Shown here in pieces: positions 12,291 through 20,008 of a stretch of 64,000 nucleotides of DNA (positions are counted from its first letter, which is position 1; each line of letters opens with the position of its first letter). The translations under genes were made by a program, and so were the position numbers. This stretch comes from Erythrobacter sp. HL-111 (GTDB lineage Bacteria > Pseudomonadota > Alphaproteobacteria > Sphingomonadales > Sphingomonadaceae): NCBI RefSeq assembly GCF_900105095.1, contig NZ_LT629743.1, positions 2,356,001 through 2,420,000 on the forward strand, given 5' to 3'. The notes beneath the pieces are model-generated. The model was not told the DNA's origin. It saw nothing but the letters and a program-made list of their open reading frames with translations, and did not search any database.

Positions 12291-13898
12291 TCATTCCGCC
12301 GGACGCGGACCGGGACGGGTGGCCGGATGGATGCCGCCTTCCTGCGCTTCGAGGCCCGCGGCCCTCTGGCCCTCCAGGTCGTCGTCCACCGTGTCGTCGA
12401 CGAGCGTTTCGAGATGCATCAGCTTCTTGATCAGCGGGCTGACGACCAGCACGCCGACACCGACCGCCACCGCGACCCAGCCGACATTGCTGTAGACGTC
12501 GAGCACGACCTGCTTGCCGGCTTCCTCGCCGACGCCTTCGGCGCCGGTCGCCGCTGCGATCAGGCCAGCGGCGAAATTGCCCGTCGCCGAAGCGAAGAAC
12601 CAAGTCCCCATGATGAGCGAGGCCATGTGCGCTGGCGCGAGCCGGTTCATCGCCGACAGGCCGACCGGCGACAGGCACAGCTCGCCCGTCGTGTGGAGCA
12701 GATAGATCAGGAAGATGAACATGACCGGCGTGGCCGCATCGACCCCCACCGACTGCGCGCCGAAGACCAGCACGAGGAAGCCAAGCCCCACCTGGATCAC
12801 GCCGAGGCCGAACTTGAAGGGCGTCGACGGCTCCATGTTGCGCCGACCGAGCGCGGTCCAGGTCGCGGCGAAGACCGGCGCGAGCAGGAAGATGAAACCG
12901 GCATTGACCGATTGAAAGACCGACGCGGGCACTACCATGCCGAACAGGGTGCGATCGACATGGCGATCGGTGAACAGATTGAGCGAGGACCCCGCCTGCT
13001 CGAACAGGGCCCAGAAGATGATCGAGGTCAGGATCAGGAACAGCGCCGCGAAAATCCGGTCCCGCTCCTCGCTGGAAAGCTTAACGACGGCGGTGAAGAG
13101 GACGTAAAGCACCAGCGCCCCCCCGAATCCGCCGAGGACATAGCCCACGAGGCTCTGGAACTGGATCGCCAGCCAGCAGATGCCGACGAGGCCGATGCCG
13201 GCGGCATACATGCCCCATTCGGTGCCCTTGCGAAGCGGCTTGGGCGGCTCGCCGCGGCCAAGCAGGAGCGGCGTGCCCCATGCGAAAACGACGAGGCCGA
13301 GCAGCATTCCGATCCCGGCAAGCCCGAACCCGTAGGCCCAGCCATAGGTCTCGCCGATGTAGCCGCACAGGATCGAGCCGAAGAAGGCACCGATATTGAT
13401 GCCCATGTAGAAGATCGTATAGGCCGGGTCCCGGCGGATGTCGGTGCGCGGGTAAAGCTGGCCGACGATCACCGAGATGTTCGCCTTGAGGAAGCCCGAA
13501 CCCACGATGATGAGCGCGAGCGCGAGCCAGAAGACGTAGATGATCGGGTTGCCGTCATTGCCCGCGGCGGGCTCGCCCTCGAAGGCCATGAAGAAGTGCC
13601 CGAGAGTCAGCAGGATCGCGCCGAACAGCACCGCCTTCCTCTGCCCGAGATACCGGTCTGCGAGATAGCCGCCGACCACCGGGGTGATGTAGACCAGCGC
13701 GGTGTAGGCGCCGTAGATGACGCCCGCCTCGCTGTCCGAGAACAGCCAGTGCTTCGTCAGGTAGAAGATCAGCAGGGCGCGCATCCCGTAATAGGAAAAC
13801 CGCTCCCACATCTCGGCGAAGAACAGCACGAACAGACCCTTGGGATGGCCAAGGATGGTGCCTGCGCTGTCCCCGTCCGGCAGTGCTTGGGTAGCCAT
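12291..13898 (-). CDS. POT-family proton-dependent oligopeptide transporter
   Basis: A 535-residue major-facilitator protein of the POT/PTR family that imports di- and tripeptides with protons. The N-terminal helix carries the family motif EMWERFSYYGMRALLIFYL (ExxER type), then GGYLADRYLGQRKAVLFGA, and FYMGINIGAFFGSILCGYIG in the fifth helix. About 14 transmembrane segments are visible. The ATG at 13898 is preceded by AAAAGG; upstream in-frame codons are not family-like. It stands alone, divergent from the GntR gene about 295 bases away; that intergenic stretch shows no clear site. Confidence 0.93.
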   Translation of the reverse strand: MATQALPDGDSAGTILGHPKGLFVLFFAEMWERFSYYGMRALLIFYLTKHWLFSDSEAGVIYGAYTALVYITPVVGGYLADRYLGQRKAVLFGAILLTLGHFFMAFEGEPAAGNDGNPIIYVFWLALALIIVGSGFLKANISVIVGQLYPRTDIRRDPAYTIFYMGINIGAFFGSILCGYIGETYGWAYGFGLAGIGMLLGLVVFAWGTPLLLGRGEPPKPLRKGTEWGMYAAGIGLVGICWLAIQFQSLVGYVLGGFGGALVLYVLFTAVVKLSSEERDRIFAALFLILTSIIFWALFEQAGSSLNLFTDRHVDRTLFGMVVPASVFQSVNAGFIFLLAPVFAATWTALGRRNMEPSTPFKFGLGVIQVGLGFLVLVFGAQSVGVDAATPVMFIFLIYLLHTTGELCLSPVGLSAMNRLAPAHMASLIMGTWFFASATGNFAAGLIAAATGAEGVGEEAGKQVVLDVYSNVGWVAVAVGVGVLVVSPLIKKLMHLETLVDDTVDDDLEGQRAAGLEAQEGGIHPATRPGPRPAE

Positions 13899-14193
13899 GA
13901 ATGAACCTTTTCGAATTGATCCCCGTGCGACGCGCCTCTCCGGGACCCGGCCGCGAAAGGCCGGCACACTAGCGGCAAAGCGCGCCTTGTGAAGCCTTCA
14001 TTACAGGACCTTGGGACGCAAGGCTCGCAGGGCCTGCCTGAACCTCGCCTGAGGCGCCCGGCCGGCGCGGTCCGCCCCGCCCCGTCCCGCCCCCGCCCCT
14101 GCGCCTTGACGCGCATGGCTGTATTATGGCACTGCACCACCTTGCATTTCCGGGGCGCCCGCATCCGCCGGTGCCCGAAGCAAGCGGGGACAC

Positions 14194-14741: not shown

Positions 14742-15023
14742 ATGATCAGATCCGAATTGCTGCAGGCGCTTCACAAGGACAATCCCGAGCTGCGCGCGGA
14801 GGAGATCGAACAGGTCGTCGACATCTTCTTCGACGAAATCGCCCAGCGCCTCGCCGAAGGCGGGCGGGTCGAACTGCGCGGCTTCGGAGCCTTCTCCACC
14901 CGCGAACGCAAGGCCCGCACCGGGCGCAACCCGCGCACCGGCGAAACGGTCGAGGTGCCGGCCAAGCGCGTGCCCTATTTCAAGGCGGGCAAGGAAATCC
15001 GCAAGCGGTTGAACGACGAATAG
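14742..15023 (+). CDS. ihfB: Integration host factor subunit beta
   Basis: A 93-residue DNA-bending protein of the HU/IHF family. The motif GRNPRTGETVEVPAKRVPYF with the minor-groove-inserting proline loop and the FKAGKEIRKRLN end are typical of IhfB, and RSELLQALHKDNPELRAEEI matches its start. It would pair with IhfA to fold DNA in recombination, replication and promoter architecture. The ATG at 14742 is chosen over the adjacent GTG because it gives the standard MIRSEL N-terminus. It is followed after about 120 bases by tRNA-Leu. Confidence 0.95.
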   Translation: MIRSELLQALHKDNPELRAEEIEQVVDIFFDEIAQRLAEGGRVELRGFGAFSTRERKARTGRNPRTGETVEVPAKRVPYFKAGKEIRKRLNDE

Positions 15024-15141
15024 GTGGCCCGCCCGCGTCCCCGGCGCGCGGTCGTCCGTTTCCGCTCCCGGCCAAGGCCGAGGCCGAGGCCGAGCGCGCG
15101 TGTTGCCCGAACGCGCGCCCCTGTCTATCGCTCGACACCGC

Positions 15142-15226
15142 GCGGGTGTGGCGGAATGGTAGACGCCGGGGACTTAAAATCCCCTGTCCCTAGGACGTGC
15201 GGGTTCGAGTCCCGCCACCCGCACCA
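15142..15226 (+). tRNA. tRNA-Leu (anticodon UAA)
   Basis: The 85-nt sequence folds as a class II tRNA. The acceptor arm GCGGGTG pairs with CACCCGC, discriminator A and encoded CCA follow. The anticodon stem GGGGA/TCCCC holds the loop CTTAAAA with TAA. The variable arm GTCC-CTA-GGAC is long, as in leucine tRNAs, and the T arm is GCGGGTTCGAGTCCCGC. Confidence 0.97.
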
Positions 15227-15549
15227 TGTCCGGCCGAAGACGCCCGCCGGGGCCTCGGTTCTCGATCGACCCGGATATCCCGGCCTGCGCGACCCGTTTC
15301 GATGAAGGCTCGCACGATCCCTGGACGCGCTTTCGAATCGCCTTCCACGAGCAGCCGCAAAGCGTCTCGCACGCCCGATCACCGGATAACCATGCCGGAT
15401 TGCACGGCAGGCCCGTGATTTCCGGCGGCAAGTTCGCCCGGCCGGCAGGGGCTGGTGGACGCGATCGACGCTTGAGGCAAGGCGGAACCCCGGCCGGACA
15501 AGCGACCCGAACCGGCGGAACGGCGGACTGATCGCCCCGTTGGTCCGAC
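15227..15549 (+). other. Intergenic stretch after tRNA-Leu, no supported gene
   Basis: About 320 bases between the tRNA and the amidohydrolase-like gene. An open frame begins at the ATG made by the tRNA CCA tail (15226), but its second half has poor codon bias and no family resemblance. No terminator-type hairpin with a T tract, no integrase remnant and no obvious repeat of the tRNA 3' end were seen. Confidence 0.5.
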
Positions 15550-16431
15550 ATGGAAGAGAAAACCGCAGGATACGAACGGGGCGCTGCCCCATCGAAGGAA
15601 GGCGCCTGCGCTTCGCGCGAATCCGCCCCGTGGGACATCGTGGTGCAGCCTGGTCCGGTGATGGTCACCGCGATCCATGCGGGACACACGATCCGCCCCT
15701 CCCTGCAACCGTGGCTCGAACTCGGCGACGAGGAGCGTCTGCGCGAGGAGGACCCGCTCACCGATTATTTCCTTCCCGCGGGCGACACGCTCGTCCGGGC
15801 GAACCGGTCGCGCTTCGAATTCGATCTGAACCGCCCTCCCGCAACCGCGGTCACGACCGATCCCGCGGATACCTGGGGGCTAAAGGTCTGGAATCCGGCC
15901 CTTCCCGAGGCGGAGAGGCGGCACTCGCTCGATCTGCACCGGCGTTTCTACGAATGGGTCGCGGAAAGGGTCGAGGCGATGATCGCCCGGCACGAACGCA
16001 TCCTCGTGCTCGATATCCACAGCTACAACCATCGCCGCGACGGGCAGGACGCGGACCCTGCCGATCCGGCCGCCAATCCCGACATCGACCTCGGCGCGAC
16101 GACGCTCGACAGTGAGATCTCCGGCGGCCTGCACGACGAGATCGCCGAAGGCCTGCGCTCGCGCAGACTGGCAGGGCGCACGCCCGATGTGCGGACCAAC
16201 GTGCGGTGGAAGGACGGCGGCCATTTCCCCGAATGGCTCCATGCCCGCTATGGCGCGGCGGCCTGCGTCATGACCCTCGAATACAAGAAGGTGTTCATGG
16301 ACGAGTGGGGGCGCACGGCCGACATCATCGCCCTGCAGGACCTGCGCGAGGGATTCCTCGCCGCGATCGACCGTGCCCGGGTCTGGCTCGCGGCGAATTG
16401 CGCGCGGGGTCGGCCGAAGGCGAGCGCATGA
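15550..16431 (+). CDS. N-formylglutamate amidohydrolase-like protein
   Basis: A 293-residue member of the HutG/N-formylglutamate amidohydrolase family, zinc-dependent enzymes that split N-acyl groups from glutamate-like substrates. Metal-site motifs are VTAIHAGH near residue 40 and LVLDIHSYNHRRDG near residue 155; VRWKDGGHFPEW and VMTLEYKKVFMDEWG follow. There is no histidine-degradation gene nearby. Instead its stop overlaps the start of the DUF1704 gene (ATGA), which in turn overlaps an ATP-grasp ligase, so it probably acts with them. This suggests a deacylation or amide-hydrolysis step in a peptide-like pathway rather than histidine breakdown (inference). Confidence 0.85.
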   Translation: MEEKTAGYERGAAPSKEGACASRESAPWDIVVQPGPVMVTAIHAGHTIRPSLQPWLELGDEERLREEDPLTDYFLPAGDTLVRANRSRFEFDLNRPPATAVTTDPADTWGLKVWNPALPEAERRHSLDLHRRFYEWVAERVEAMIARHERILVLDIHSYNHRRDGQDADPADPAANPDIDLGATTLDSEISGGLHDEIAEGLRSRRLAGRTPDVRTNVRWKDGGHFPEWLHARYGAAACVMTLEYKKVFMDEWGRTADIIALQDLREGFLAAIDRARVWLAANCARGRPKASA

Positions 16432-17648
16432 GCGGGGCTGCAGGCAGGCGGCTCGCACAACCGGAAGCAGGGCCGAGCGCGCTTTGCGCGGCCGCGATCG
16501 AAGTCGACCGCGCGCTCGCCGAGATGGACCGCAAGGTGGACTGGCTCGCGCGCCTCACCCCGGTCAACATGGACGAGATATGGGAGGGTTTCAGGTCCTC
16601 GGGCTTTCGGTCCATGCCCGACAGCCGGTTCGGCGACGGGCTCTCCCGCGACGCCCCGGTTCTGCGCGACGAATTGTTCGACCTGCCGGTGCGCGCGATC
16701 GCCAATCCCCTGATCGAGGCCCTGCTGCTGGAAAAGCAGCGCGAACTCGATCGCCAGATCGAACTGGTGCGGATGCGCGGACAGGAAGGTTTCATCCTCG
16801 CCAGCATCGACCTGTTCGGCCATGTGAGCGAACGCCTGCTCGATACCGCGCTCGATTTGCTCGACACCATATCCGCCCCGCCCCCGGACGAACTCGACGC
16901 GGGCGCCGAGGAGGTTCGCGCCGCGGCATTCGAGGCCGTCGTGCGGTACCGCGAACGCAGCCCCGGTTTCTCCTGCGAGGTGATCGTCGACACGACGCCG
17001 GGCACCTCGCTCTATGTCTCGCAGGGCAATCTGCACATCGCGCACGATTACCGCACCTCAAGGCATAGGGTCGAACCCCTGATCGCGCACGAGGTCGGCA
17101 CCCATGCCGTCACCCGTTTCAATGGCGAACGCCAGCCGCTGCACACGCTGGCGGACGGGCTCGCCGACTACGACGACCTGCAGGAGGGGCTCGCGGTCCT
17201 GGGCGAATATCTCGCCGGGTACCTCCCGGCAGAGCGCCTGCGCATCCTCGCGGCCCGCGTGGTCGCGGCGCACATGGCGGTCGAGGGGAAAGCCGGCCCC
17301 GAGATATTCGCCCGCCTCGTCGAGGAGCATGGCATCGGGCAGAAGGACGCGTTCGACACGGCCGTGCGAGCCAAGCGTGGCGGCGGCCTCACCAAGGATG
17401 CGCTCTACCTGAAAGGGCTTGCGGAACTGCTCGCATATCTCGACCACGGCGGCGATTTCAGGATCCTGTTCCTCGGCAAGTTCGCCCTGAAACAGCTCCC
17501 GACGCTCGAAAAACTGATCGAGGACGGCATCGTGCACCCACCCGAACTGCTCCCGTCCTTCTGCGAGGACGAGGGTGCGATCCGGCGGCTTGCCGACGCG
17601 CGGTCCGCCCCGCTCGCTTCGCTTTACCATGAAAGGCCCGCAGGATGA
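16428..17648 (+). CDS. DUF1704 / QEGLA-motif metallopeptidase-like protein
   Basis: A 406-residue protein of the family named for its QEGLA motif. It has HEVGTH at residues 221-226 and LQEGLA at 251-256, the arrangement of two zinc-binding histidines with a glutamate base and a downstream glutamate ligand. In animals the same DUF1704 fold forms MATCAP, a carboxypeptidase that removes C-terminal tyrosine from tubulin; bacterial members carry the old label 'flavohemoglobin expression-modulating'. No signal peptide is seen. It overlaps both neighbours by four bases (ATGA), so the three are translated together. A role as a C-terminal amino-acid-releasing carboxypeptidase is inferred from the fold. 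Confidence 0.88.
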   Translation: MSGAAGRRLAQPEAGPSALCAAAIEVDRALAEMDRKVDWLARLTPVNMDEIWEGFRSSGFRSMPDSRFGDGLSRDAPVLRDELFDLPVRAIANPLIEALLLEKQRELDRQIELVRMRGQEGFILASIDLFGHVSERLLDTALDLLDTISAPPPDELDAGAEEVRAAAFEAVVRYRERSPGFSCEVIVDTTPGTSLYVSQGNLHIAHDYRTSRHRVEPLIAHEVGTHAVTRFNGERQPLHTLADGLADYDDLQEGLAVLGEYLAGYLPAERLRILAARVVAAHMAVEGKAGPEIFARLVEEHGIGQKDAFDTAVRAKRGGGLTKDALYLKGLAELLAYLDHGGDFRILFLGKFALKQLPTLEKLIEDGIVHPPELLPSFCEDEGAIRRLADARSAPLASLYHERPAG

Positions 17649-18706
17649 CGCAGGACAAGATCAAGCTCGCTTTCGTCGTCAACGACGTCGCGACCGAGCA
17701 GGACAATTACACGACGATCCGCCTCGCCCGCCGGGCGGTCGGGCGCGGGCACGAGGTCGCGCTGATCGGGCTCGGCGATTTCATCTATGACTGGGAAGAC
17801 GGCATCTGCGCGATGGCGACGCTCAGCAAGGTCGGCGAATTCGCGGACGACACGGCCTATCTTGAACATCTCCAGGACCCCGAACGCGAGCGCGCGCGCA
17901 TCGTGCTGGGCGAGCGGGACATTCTCATGCTCCGCAGCGACCCGGCCGAGGAGCTGGTCTCGCGCAGCTGGGCGCCCGCCTCCTGCCTGCTGTTCGCGCA
18001 GCTAGCCTCGCTCGGGCGAACCATCGTCCTGAACGATCCGCGCCATCTCACCGATGCGGTCAACAAGACCTATTTCCAGGGATTTCCCGAAAGCGTCCGG
18101 CCCGAGACGACCATTACCCGCGAAGAGGCCGAGGTCGCGCGCTTCCTCGAAGCGCATGGCGGCAAGTGCGTGGTCAAGCCCCTGCAGGGATCGGGCGGAC
18201 AGGGCGTCTTCATCATCGACGAGGGCAATCGCCAGAACCTGTCCCAGATCATCGAGGCGGTCACGCGCGACGGCTATGCGATCGTGCAGGAATACCTGCC
18301 GGCCGCCGCCGACGGCGACCTGCGGATGATCACGCTGAACGGCCACCCGCTGCGGGTCGACGACACCTATGCCTGCATCCGCCGCTTCAGCCAGAGCGAG
18401 GACCATCGTTCCAACATCTCGGCCGGCGGCGGGGTCGAACTCGCCGAGCCCGACGAAGCCGCGCTTCAGATCGCCGAGATCGTCGGACCTAAGCTCATCG
18501 ATGACGGAATGTATCTCACCGGCCTCGACATCGCCGGCGACAGGATGATGGAACTGAACGTCGATACGCCCGGCGGGCTGAGTTTCATGGAGGATCTCGC
18601 GGGCGTCGATTTCAGCGGCGCGGTACTCGACGACCTCCAGCGCAAGGTGAAGCTGCGGCGGCAGTACGGCGGAACGCTCAGCAACCGCCAGCTCGCGGTG
18701 ATCTGA
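17645..18706 (+). CDS. Glutathione-synthetase-like ATP-grasp ligase
   Basis: A 353-residue ATP-grasp enzyme resembling GshB. After a Rossmann-like N-terminal domain (KIKLAFVVNDVATEQDNYTT), the nucleotide-binding part shows GKCVVKPLQGSGGQGVFII near residue 175, IVQEYLPAAADGDLRMI, and the metal-binding MMELNVDTPGGLSFME near residue 300. GshB proper is about 315 residues and normally stands near gshA, which is absent here. Coupling to a DUF1704 peptidase and an N-formylglutamate-amidohydrolase relative suggests it ligates an amino acid or short peptide other than, or besides, glycine to gamma-glutamylcysteine. Authentic glutathione synthetase remains possible. Confidence 0.85.
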   Translation: MTQDKIKLAFVVNDVATEQDNYTTIRLARRAVGRGHEVALIGLGDFIYDWEDGICAMATLSKVGEFADDTAYLEHLQDPERERARIVLGERDILMLRSDPAEELVSRSWAPASCLLFAQLASLGRTIVLNDPRHLTDAVNKTYFQGFPESVRPETTITREEAEVARFLEAHGGKCVVKPLQGSGGQGVFIIDEGNRQNLSQIIEAVTRDGYAIVQEYLPAAADGDLRMITLNGHPLRVDDTYACIRRFSQSEDHRSNISAGGGVELAEPDEAALQIAEIVGPKLIDDGMYLTGLDIAGDRMMELNVDTPGGLSFMEDLAGVDFSGAVLDDLQRKVKLRRQYGGTLSNRQLAVI

Positions 18707-18800
18707 ACCTTCCCCCGCGCGTGCCGGGCTCCGGGGTTCGATGGGGTTCGTGGGGATCGAGCGCGGCGCATCCGCTTCGGACAGCGCGCCGACGCGAATG

Positions 18801-19196
18801 TCAGGAGGGGGGCTGTTCGGATATGTCGACCTCGGTCCGGCGCAGTTCGACCGAGTGCTCCTCGGTGGTTTCCTCGCGGGTGCGGCGGAGGTGGATTTCC
18901 TCCTTCAGCACCAGCTGGCGGGTGACGACGAGCCGTTCCTCCACCACCGGGATGACGGTGAGATCGCCGTCCTCGCGGATGTCCGGGCGTTCCTCGATCA
19001 CTTCTCCGACCGGCACGCGCTCCACCGTCACCTTCTCGCGCATCACGGGCTGCGAGATCTCGTGCGTTTCCGAAACCGGGCGGGTCGTCACGCTGACCGT
19101 CCGGCCTTCCACCACCTTCCTGCCGATTTCGACCCGTTCCTCGACGACGGGGACGACATGTTCCTCGGCGGTTTCTTGCTCGGTCCTGTCGCTCAT
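18801..19196 (-). CDS. DUF2382 (YsnF/AvaK-type) stress protein
   Basis: A 131-residue, highly charged protein built from DUF2382 repeats. VPVVEERVEIGRKVVEGRTV near the start and VIPVVEERLVVTRQLVLKEEI later are two copies of the same unit, ending with HLRRTREETTEEHSVELRR. These proteins are induced by stress in several bacteria, but their biochemical role is unknown. It is the last gene of a three-gene group read leftward (OmpA-like, PRC+DUF2382, DUF2382), with about 70-base spacing. It converges on the ATP-grasp gene. Confidence 0.88.
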   Translation of the reverse strand: MSDRTEQETAEEHVVPVVEERVEIGRKVVEGRTVSVTTRPVSETHEISQPVMREKVTVERVPVGEVIEERPDIREDGDLTVIPVVEERLVVTRQLVLKEEIHLRRTREETTEEHSVELRRTEVDISEQPPS

Positions 19197-19268
19197 GATC
19201 GCTCCTCGCTTCGAGACGAAAAGGGGCCGGCCGCATTGCGCGACCGGCCGCCTTCCGGGGGGATGCGC

Positions 19269-19934
19269 TCAGCGGCGCCTGTTCTTGCGGTCCTCGTCGA
19301 CATCGACGTCGACCTCGGTCCGGCGGGCCGTCTCCTCGACGTGCTCGACCCTGTCGTCGGCCGTCTTCCTGACGACCACTTCGTCCTTGACGACGGCCTT
19401 CTTGCCGACGACCGCCTCTTCGTCGTGTTCGGTCATCGACACGTTCCTGTCCTGGAGCAGCTTGTCCGCATCGGCGGACGTCACTTCCCGGTCCACCGGC
19501 CGGCGGTCGACCGACACGGTTTCGTCGCGCAGATGGACGTCCTCGCTCACGCGGTCCTCGACCACCCGGGATTTCACGCTGATGTTCCTGCCGTGTTCGG
19601 AAACGCGCTTGCCGATGGCGACCTTTTCCTCGACCACCGGGACCACTTCCTCGGTCACGGCCGCGCCGCCCTGGCGCGCATGGGCCGCGGCTTCCTCGCC
19701 ATAGACCACCGCATTGTCGTGGATGACCAGTGGTTCGACGGCGCAGACCTTGCCATTGTCGAGCCTGACGGCTTCGACGTGGGTCCGGTCGTCGTCGACC
19801 AGCAGGTGCTCGATCACGCCGTAGCGCTGGCCCGTCGGGCTGACGAGGGGCAGGCCGCGGATGTCCTGGTCGCTGTGTTCGAGTTCGTAGTCCGACAGTT
19901 GGTCGAGCTGTTCGTAACGTGTGTCGTGTCGCAT
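19269..19934 (-). CDS. PRC-barrel plus DUF2382 domain protein
   Basis: A 221-residue protein. Residues 20-80 resemble a PRC-barrel (DIRGLPLVSPTGQRYGVIEHL), followed by a DUF2382 region (VPVVEEKVAIGKRVSEHGRN), a linker, and a second charged unit (KKAVVKDEVVVRKTADDRVE). The C-terminus is very acidic then basic (VDVDVDEDRKNRRR). The ATG at 19934 follows GGAGAG; an earlier ATG at 19967 lacks a site. PRC-barrels bind RNA processing factors or photosynthetic reaction centres; PRC+DUF2382 proteins occur in stress clusters. The repeat units resemble those of the neighbouring 131-residue protein, suggesting gene duplication. Confidence 0.87.
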   Translation of the reverse strand: MRHDTRYEQLDQLSDYELEHSDQDIRGLPLVSPTGQRYGVIEHLLVDDDRTHVEAVRLDNGKVCAVEPLVIHDNAVVYGEEAAAHARQGGAAVTEEVVPVVEEKVAIGKRVSEHGRNISVKSRVVEDRVSEDVHLRDETVSVDRRPVDREVTSADADKLLQDRNVSMTEHDEEAVVGKKAVVKDEVVVRKTADDRVEHVEETARRTEVDVDVDEDRKNRRR

Positions 19935-20008
19935 GATGTCTCTCCGTTGGGGTATTCGGTTGGGCACGCCTGCAAAGAAGGCGGGCCGGGTAAGTGCGGC
20001 GATCGGCC

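Follow-up and report, generated by a model that had tools for sequence, protein, structure and literature searches.

Amide ligases of the ATP-grasp class combined with an opposing amide hydrolase are a known kind of system; glutathionylspermidine synthetase/amidase, cyanophycin synthetase/CphZ and the N-acetylglutaminylglutamine amide (NAGGN) synthetase are examples. GshB-type ligases phosphorylate a carboxylate and join it to an amine, by which a molecule is lengthened at its carboxyl end; enzymes of the M14, M32 and MATCAP types shorten molecules there. FGase releases acidic amino acids that carry an acyl group, and so acts on the same bond from the other side. Here, a locus of Erythrobacter sp. 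HL-111 was analysed in which these families stand together as three adjacent genes, termed A (FGase-like), B (MATCAP/DUF1704) and C (GshB-like ATP-grasp ligase). The window, i.e. the whole stretch of DNA analysed, has 64,000 nucleotides (NZ_LT629743.1, positions 2,356,001 to 2,420,000) and comes from a genome of one contig (3.19 Mb). The families and products of the systems named above differ from those of the trio, and the likeness is one of analogy.

The RimK/RimB system (RimABK) likewise joins an ATP-grasp ligase with a protease that undoes its work, with chemistry at the carboxyl end (PMC12239564, PMC11957791), but its ligase is RimK-type and its protease a retropepsin, and the window genome holds a separate RimK/RimB-like pair. 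RloABC of Pseudomonas aeruginosa, also an ATP-grasp and peptidase module, is needed for growth at low osmolarity (PMC12239564), but consists of an ATP-grasp protein of family PF14397, a retropepsin and an inactive membrane transglutaminase, with neither FGase nor MATCAP. MATCAP trims tubulin tails, and human relatives of B are proven carboxypeptidases, TMCP1 removing Tyr, Ala, Glu or Gly (PMC10499314). B has its fold, the HExxxH motif and the third-ligand Glu in common with MATCAP1/TMCP1 and TMCP2, but identity is ~20%, and the trio differs from the tubulin tyrosine ligase (TTL) cycle in that C is not TTL and an extra FGase partner is present. No description of the trio was found in the open-licence literature searched, which did not include the 2009 amidoligase survey of Iyer et al.; the set of families, its spread and an FGase–MATCAP fusion described below appear to be new.

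Judged from comparative sequence analysis, the trio is a real module. The chances are about even that this module edits the carboxyl end of a peptide-like molecule by means of an amide ligase and partnered zinc hydrolases of carboxypeptidase type. C would activate a carboxylate with ATP and join an amino acid to it, whereas A (FGase fold, kin of the M14 carboxypeptidases) and B (MATCAP, with an M32-like carboxypeptidase fold), probably as one complex, would cut residues off the carboxyl end and thereby remove, trim or proof-read the product of C. Such addition and trimming are suggested by a closely coupled operon that combines a single ligase with two hydrolases acting as partners.

Gene order and spread of the trio

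The trio is laid out in the window as follows.
15550–16431, + strand: gene A, FGase-like protein of 293 amino acids (PF05013, 2.8e-18)
16428–16431, + strand: ATGA overlap of the stop of A and the start of B
16428–17648, + strand: gene B, short-form MATCAP/DUF1704 protein of 406 amino acids (PF08014, 1.3e-70), with HEVGTH ... QEGLA
17645–17648, + strand: ATGA overlap of the stop of B and the start of C
17645–18706, + strand: gene C, GshB-like ATP-grasp ligase of 353 amino acids (PF02955, 1.5e-42, 145.4 bits)

An earlier note, made from the letters of this DNA, had read ATGA overlaps at both junctions, and HEVGTH at residues 221–226 and LQEGLA at 251–256 of B; coordinates and positions agree with that reading. 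The start of B was taken as the ATG giving 406 amino acids, and a mechanical list of open reading frames (ORFs) has a longer GTG start at 16206. Chance is not a likely source of the overlaps, because a 4-base start/stop overlap (ATGA, GTGA or TTGA) recurs in most testable cases among 80 related loci, 51 of 65 at the A–B junction and 49 of 69 at the B–C junction.

These loci come from a scan of one genome per species with a profile of C; at least 560 relatives were obtained, of which the 80 best loci were kept. Of these, 64 have the collinear order A–B–C on a single strand. The remainder comprised two loci with all three genes otherwise arranged, eight with A and C, four with B and C, and two with C alone. 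One of the two rearranged loci has B on the opposite strand (L076), and in the other the order is changed only by an over-long ORF start (L039). An FGase match was obtained in a second search of L083, counted here as B and C, and four loci are cut near a contig end (L073, L088, L092 and L097). Labels of 11 phyla are carried by the 80 loci (Pseudomonadota, Actinomycetota, Acidobacteriota, Planctomycetota, Bacteroidota, Balneolota, Chloroflexota, Myxococcota, Kiritimatiellota, Calditrichota and Ignavibacteriota), many of the loci being contigs of metagenome-assembled genomes (MAGs), a few of them with doubtful binning. L067, L071 and L078 are probably misbinned, as the tree places them with lineages other than those of their labels. 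With 64 of 80 loci collinear and labels from 11 phyla, the view that the trio is not conserved beyond close relatives was rejected, and linkage of the ligase with the carboxypeptidase-type protein extends far beyond that range. In a first set of distant loci, C was 44–48% identical to its counterpart in the window, B 33–40% and A 35–36%.

Of 60 long trio loci (window included), 57 had an FGase homologue, versus none of 40 control stretches of 20 kb taken from carrier genomes. Within the family of the window, 199 genomes were searched; PF08014 was found in 17 and the C type in 16, and these same 16 hold intact B and C, adjacent in all, with A within 1.5 kb in every one. The 17th genome (G265, C2:78069-78815; L212-L214) has a decaying copy in which A, B and C survive only as pieces, and because of this the trio seems to be lost as a unit. 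Neither B nor C was found in three other genomes of the genus of the window. A sample of 200 Pseudomonadota genomes gave PF08014 in 18, the C type in seven and both in six; in the seventh C-type genome, C begins at base 48 of its contig.

Pairwise correlations between the distance matrices of A, B and C, for 62 loci with all three proteins at full length plus the window, were 0.89–0.92 (r), to which shared species history contributes. Two or three copies of C in tandem follow B in L102, L106 and L115 (3 of 80 loci), with all nine catalytic residues kept; these copies suggest that more than one residue could be added.

Family assignments of C, A and B

C belongs to the GSH-S_ATP ATP-grasp superfamily (PF02955, 145.4 bits against a cut-off of 23). 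Core residues, fold and ATP site are common to C and canonical GshB, and the nine residues shared by the two are kept in 93 of 93 C-family rows, but six positions conserved at ≥0.9 in both groups differ between them (N13, Y22, R26, I296, M302 and G310 in the C of the window). Neither GshB equivalog cut-off was reached by C, which scored 166.1 bits on TIGR01380 (cut-off 299.05) and 183.1 bits on NF003573 (cut-off 272). On NF009110 (PRK12458, 'glutathione synthetase') it scored 367 bits, below the curated cut-off of 408, which is passed by 5 of the 16 C carriers in the family of the window and by 6 of the 7 in the 200-genome phylum sample. One branch (support 99) of a 132-protein tree separated 93 C rows from 38 canonical GshB rows, and the split returned with support 100/99 in a second tree of 58 rows, for which one C row in three and one GshB row in two were taken. 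From the equivalog scores and both trees, a canonical GshB identity was rejected, and on this evidence C is not a canonical glutathione synthase but a member of a separate clade. At 38 canonical gshB loci, no A or B was found within flanks of 1.5 kb. Clustering of C with GshB and restriction of the trio to close relatives are the two sequence outcomes that would speak against the add-and-remove cycle proposed in the earlier note, and both failed to appear, because the trio is widely conserved and C lies outside the GshB clade.

Three GSH-S_ATP matches were found in the window genome. On TIGR01380, C scores 166 bits, a canonical GshB at about 684.5 kb 378 bits, and a RimK-like gene at about 968.8 kb 59 bits. 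By similarity, this RimK-like ATP-grasp ligase and an adjoining retropepsin-like gene form a RimK/RimB-like pair (L037:6763-8212). A RimK identity for C itself was rejected (34.0 bits against the NF007764 cut-off of 331), and TTL was not among the eight Pfam families listed for C up to E = 1. The parallel with TTL drawn in the earlier note therefore goes no further than the superfamily, with C on the GshB side of the ATP-grasp enzymes.

It is very unlikely that C is a divergent glutathione synthase, with A and B serving as salvage peptidases for glutathione or γ-glutamyl peptides. Glutathione synthase is a frequent database label, and fold and ATP site are indeed those of GshB; a canonical GshB above the TIGR01380 cut-off is also lacking in 6 of 6 Magnetococcia-type carriers, a lineage in which C might thus make glutathione, and in 22 of 36 other carriers. 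Against it stand the separate clade, the changes at some substrate-side positions, and the occurrence of a canonical GshB elsewhere in 22 of 71 carriers searched (14 of 36 others, 7 of 13 further carriers, and the window genome itself). None of the 21 actinobacterial carriers had a canonical GshB, and 10 of these 21 (8 of the ten being MAGs) had no GCS2 match, a search that does not cover GshA of the PF04262 type. Relatives of C with <60% identity also occur in 124 plasmid records, mostly from Sinorhizobium/Ensifer and some annotated as glutathione synthase; identity is 42.7–44.0% in the 15 listed.

Both the profile score over the PF05013 cut-off and the fold place A among the FGases, but it is not HutG N-formylglutamate deformylase (19.4 bits against an equivalog cut-off of 278.75), from which it differs further by its linkage to B and C. 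A is of the FGase-fold zinc amidohydrolase type and probably hydrolyses, in the manner of a carboxypeptidase, an acidic substrate that is either N-acylated or a peptide. CphZ (8ein) is among its weak fold matches, in fold-library listings from which absence of a family does not exclude it. Genes for glutathione synthesis (gshA) or histidine breakdown (hut) had been said to be lacking around the trio; this held for the ten annotated flanking genes (between 10682 and 23631), to which the check was limited.

B is a member of MATCAP/DUF1704 by its profile score over the PF08014 cut-off, the HExxxH motif, the downstream Glu and the fold; it does not reach the TIGR02421 QEGLA equivalog (264 bits, cut-off 338.65). 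Ten B sequences fail the QEGLA pattern, and the Glu is kept in all ten. A trio-type MATCAP also occurs at L028:9158-12110, with no C adjoining, beside a deacylase of the AstE/AspA type (PF24827) rather than an FGase, possibly a case of one hydrolase swapped for another. A record named Pseudomonas phage Y1 matches MATCAP in part at OQ572403.1:63503-64048 (36% over 42% of B). An anti-phage defence system was rejected as an identity for the trio, as PADLOC-DB had no family matching A, B or C at E 0.001.

FGase–MATCAP linkage and the proposed chemistry

Seven further C loci were read. In six, C is followed by a single ORF (~660 amino acids) that contains both FGase and MATCAP, and in the seventh (L270) the long ORF shows MATCAP only. 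One of the six is from Vibrio sp. 10N (protein P0241 is identical). This Vibrio fusion has 619 homologues, and of the best 120 among them 118 had both domains, with names including Vibrio, Shewanella, Ferrimonas, Thalassotalea and Pseudoalteromonas. Fusion-type C proteins form a third clade beside C and GshB, and one fusion-type locus (L272) comes from the taxonomic order to which the window belongs. In L271, a divergent RimK-type ligase gene (PF08443, L271:6745-7653) lies beside the C and fusion genes.

A second kind of linkage was seen in B itself. Of the 70 B genes in the 80 loci, 40 are of the short form, which includes the relatives of the window, and 30 are of a long form with an extra N-terminal domain. 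The long form comes from ten of the eleven phyla, all but the Pseudomonadota in that set, and is also found in Magnetococcia-type Pseudomonadota. Pfam gave no match in the N-terminal region of three long B proteins examined. In profile comparisons this domain reached a probability of 91.5 (E 8.7e-7) against free A and of 97.2 (E 4.5e-11) against the FGase portion of the fusions, versus 0.2 against C as control. The first FGase motif histidine is replaced by Arg, Gln, Lys, Gly or Ile and the second by Trp in 18 of 18. The extra domain is thus FGase-like but likely inactive, carried on MATCAP beside a separate A. As FGase and MATCAP are covalently linked in these two ways, A and B are predicted to form a complex.

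The eight loci with A and C in the absence of B, all from MAGs, have no PF08014 anywhere in their genomes (0 of 8), and A–C therefore looks like the minimal pair, with A a core member of the module. A role for A in clearing a side product, as first suggested, is unlikely, as A stays with C where B is missing and is fused to B, or shares an FGase-like domain with it, in other lineages.

Four points are inferred: activity of every enzyme, contact between A and B, the direction of the chemistry, and a small peptide or peptide cofactor, not the end of a protein, as the substrate. Several observations weigh against this carboxyl-end editing. The same eight of 80 loci indicate that B is not always needed, and L107, which lies on a whole chromosome, has B and C with no A nearby. 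In the 200-genome sample, 12 of the 18 genomes with PF08014 carry B without C; these hold a 'classic' B, with no A or C in its 1.5-kb flanks. True FGases cleave N-formyl groups, a type of reaction that A could catalyse instead of peptide trimming. The FGase part lacks some motif residues in the fusions P0265 (Vibrio mimicus) and L271:8998-9871, so that A need not be catalytic there, and this half of those fusions may be turning into a pseudo-enzyme. To these are added the Magnetococcia-type carriers, all six without a canonical GshB above the cut-off.

Other readings of the trio were weighed on the same evidence. That the trio is a biosynthetic cluster, with A and B maturing rather than degrading a small peptide metabolite (an osmolyte, a cofactor or a natural product), is unlikely. 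Tandem C genes are what would be expected if each copy added a different residue, some carriers keep A and C only, and linked peptide ligases often act sequentially in peptide metabolites (PMC4431377), but tandem C is confined to 3 of 80 loci, and the neighbours of the trio in different phyla have no family of biosynthetic genes in common.

It is also unlikely that C adds one or more amino acids to a protein C-terminus from which B removes them, as a bacterial counterpart of tubulin tyrosination or of RimK/RimB acting on S6. B has the fold of MATCAP, a trimmer of tubulin tails (PMC10499314), RimK/RimB is such a cycle in bacteria (PMC12239564, PMC11957791), and homologues of RloA, RloB and RloC, proteins related to RimB/RimK, lie directly downstream of the trio or of its B–C part in three Magnetococcia-type loci (L031, L032 and L033). 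C is, however, closest to GshB, with its small-peptide acceptor, and not to TTL or RimK; tubulin is the target described for MATCAP (PMC10499314); and among clustered neighbour ORFs of at least 80 amino acids no conserved target protein was found near the trio, including a small one of the kind that the earlier note had suggested looking for. Of the cycle put forward there, the link between a ligase and a carboxypeptidase-type protein stood, but nothing was found that favours a protein C-terminus over a small peptide as its object.

A catabolic operon, in which A and B would break down peptides or N-acyl amino acids as nutrients and C would be a minor salvage or detoxifying ligase, is the least probable of these readings. 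The two hydrolases per ligase and a POT-type peptide transporter at 12291–13907 in the window are in line with it, but the transporter gene lies on the opposite strand and belongs to none of the families found in at least six trio loci, and the ATP-consuming ligase C is the best conserved member.

Neighbouring genes and physiological leads

The ten flanking genes of the window encode an enoyl-CoA hydratase, NnrU, the POT transporter, a GntR regulator, HU, two DUF2382 proteins, OmpA, PilZ and an FAD oxidoreductase. The DUF2382 genes (18801–19967, − strand), which we take to be of the YsnF/stress-protein type, lie just downstream of C and convergent with it. A tRNA-Leu gene is found upstream of the trio (15142–15226), and a crude scan of 15000–19000 gave no sigma-70-like promoter.

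Clustering of neighbour ORFs of at least 80 amino acids from 90 loci gave no family shared across phyla beyond A, B, C and their antisense shadows, except an APC/SLC12-type transporter in six loci. Comparison of the 60 long trio loci with the 40 controls showed no significant excess of MscS (9 vs 2, p 0.10), APC/SLC12 (4 vs 0, p 0.12), LysR (4 vs 0, p 0.12), CorA (3 vs 1, p 0.47) or RloB (2 vs 0, p 0.36), and osmotic and ion-channel neighbours were accordingly rejected as proof of function and kept as leads only. Among the Magnetococcia-type loci, 4 of 9 have a LysR-type regulator in the vicinity of the trio, as have 4 of the 7 further loci (L027, L029, L030, L032, L266, L268, L269 and L272), the same query giving 0 of 40 controls. 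Genes read from their sequences as threonine synthase-like (seven loci: L063, L069, L074, L075, L082, L093 and L116) and phosphoglycerate mutase-like (an overlapping set of eight) recur in Actinomycetota only, probably through the shared gene order of one actinobacterial lineage. Two Calditrichota loci, L064 and L090, have three common genes upstream of A, one with an OmpA domain. RloB/RloC homologues are also found ~8 kb away in L102; the Rlo proteins of L032 had no match in 21 kb of the window around the trio, the rest of the genome lying outside this search.

A lead on physiology comes from RNA-seq of Photobacterium damselae RM-71 at 1% versus 3% NaCl, in which A0J47_RS17020 ('glutathione synthase GshB') was up 38.4-fold, A0J47_RS17025 ('QEGLA motif protein') 27.5-fold and RimK 52.2-fold, RS17020 being interpreted as glutathione synthetase (PMC10308900). 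A listing for V. vulnificus gives VV2_1204 (glutathione synthetase) directly after VV2_1203 (COG3930) (PMC3091676). RS17020/RS17025 may be the C–fusion pair of vibrios, a match made by consecutive tags and names and not by sequences. The C of P. damselae would then fall in the fusion-type clade, and transfer to the trio of the window would be by analogy.

A more specific role, which we consider rather improbable, is the reversible packing of small peptides at the carboxyl end in adaptation to low osmolarity, with glutamate-like residues tied up when salt falls and released later. The ligase would form short peptides or tags, leaving fewer osmotically active molecules or capping a signal, and the partnered FGase–MATCAP hydrolase would later return the amino acids. 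If this were true, the kin of the tubulin-tail enzymes would have begun as small-peptide trimmers in bacteria.

Should the carboxyl-end editing proposed for the trio be right, many of the 'glutathione synthase' labels on C-family proteins would be wrong, including those in bacteria without a canonical GshB, and a peptide-editing module found across many phyla would have gone unnamed. The fused and pseudo-enzyme forms make an FGase–MATCAP complex a specific and directly testable idea, and MATCAP/DUF1704, whose substrate in the papers cited is tubulin, would gain a bacterial set of partners and with it a route to its original substrate.

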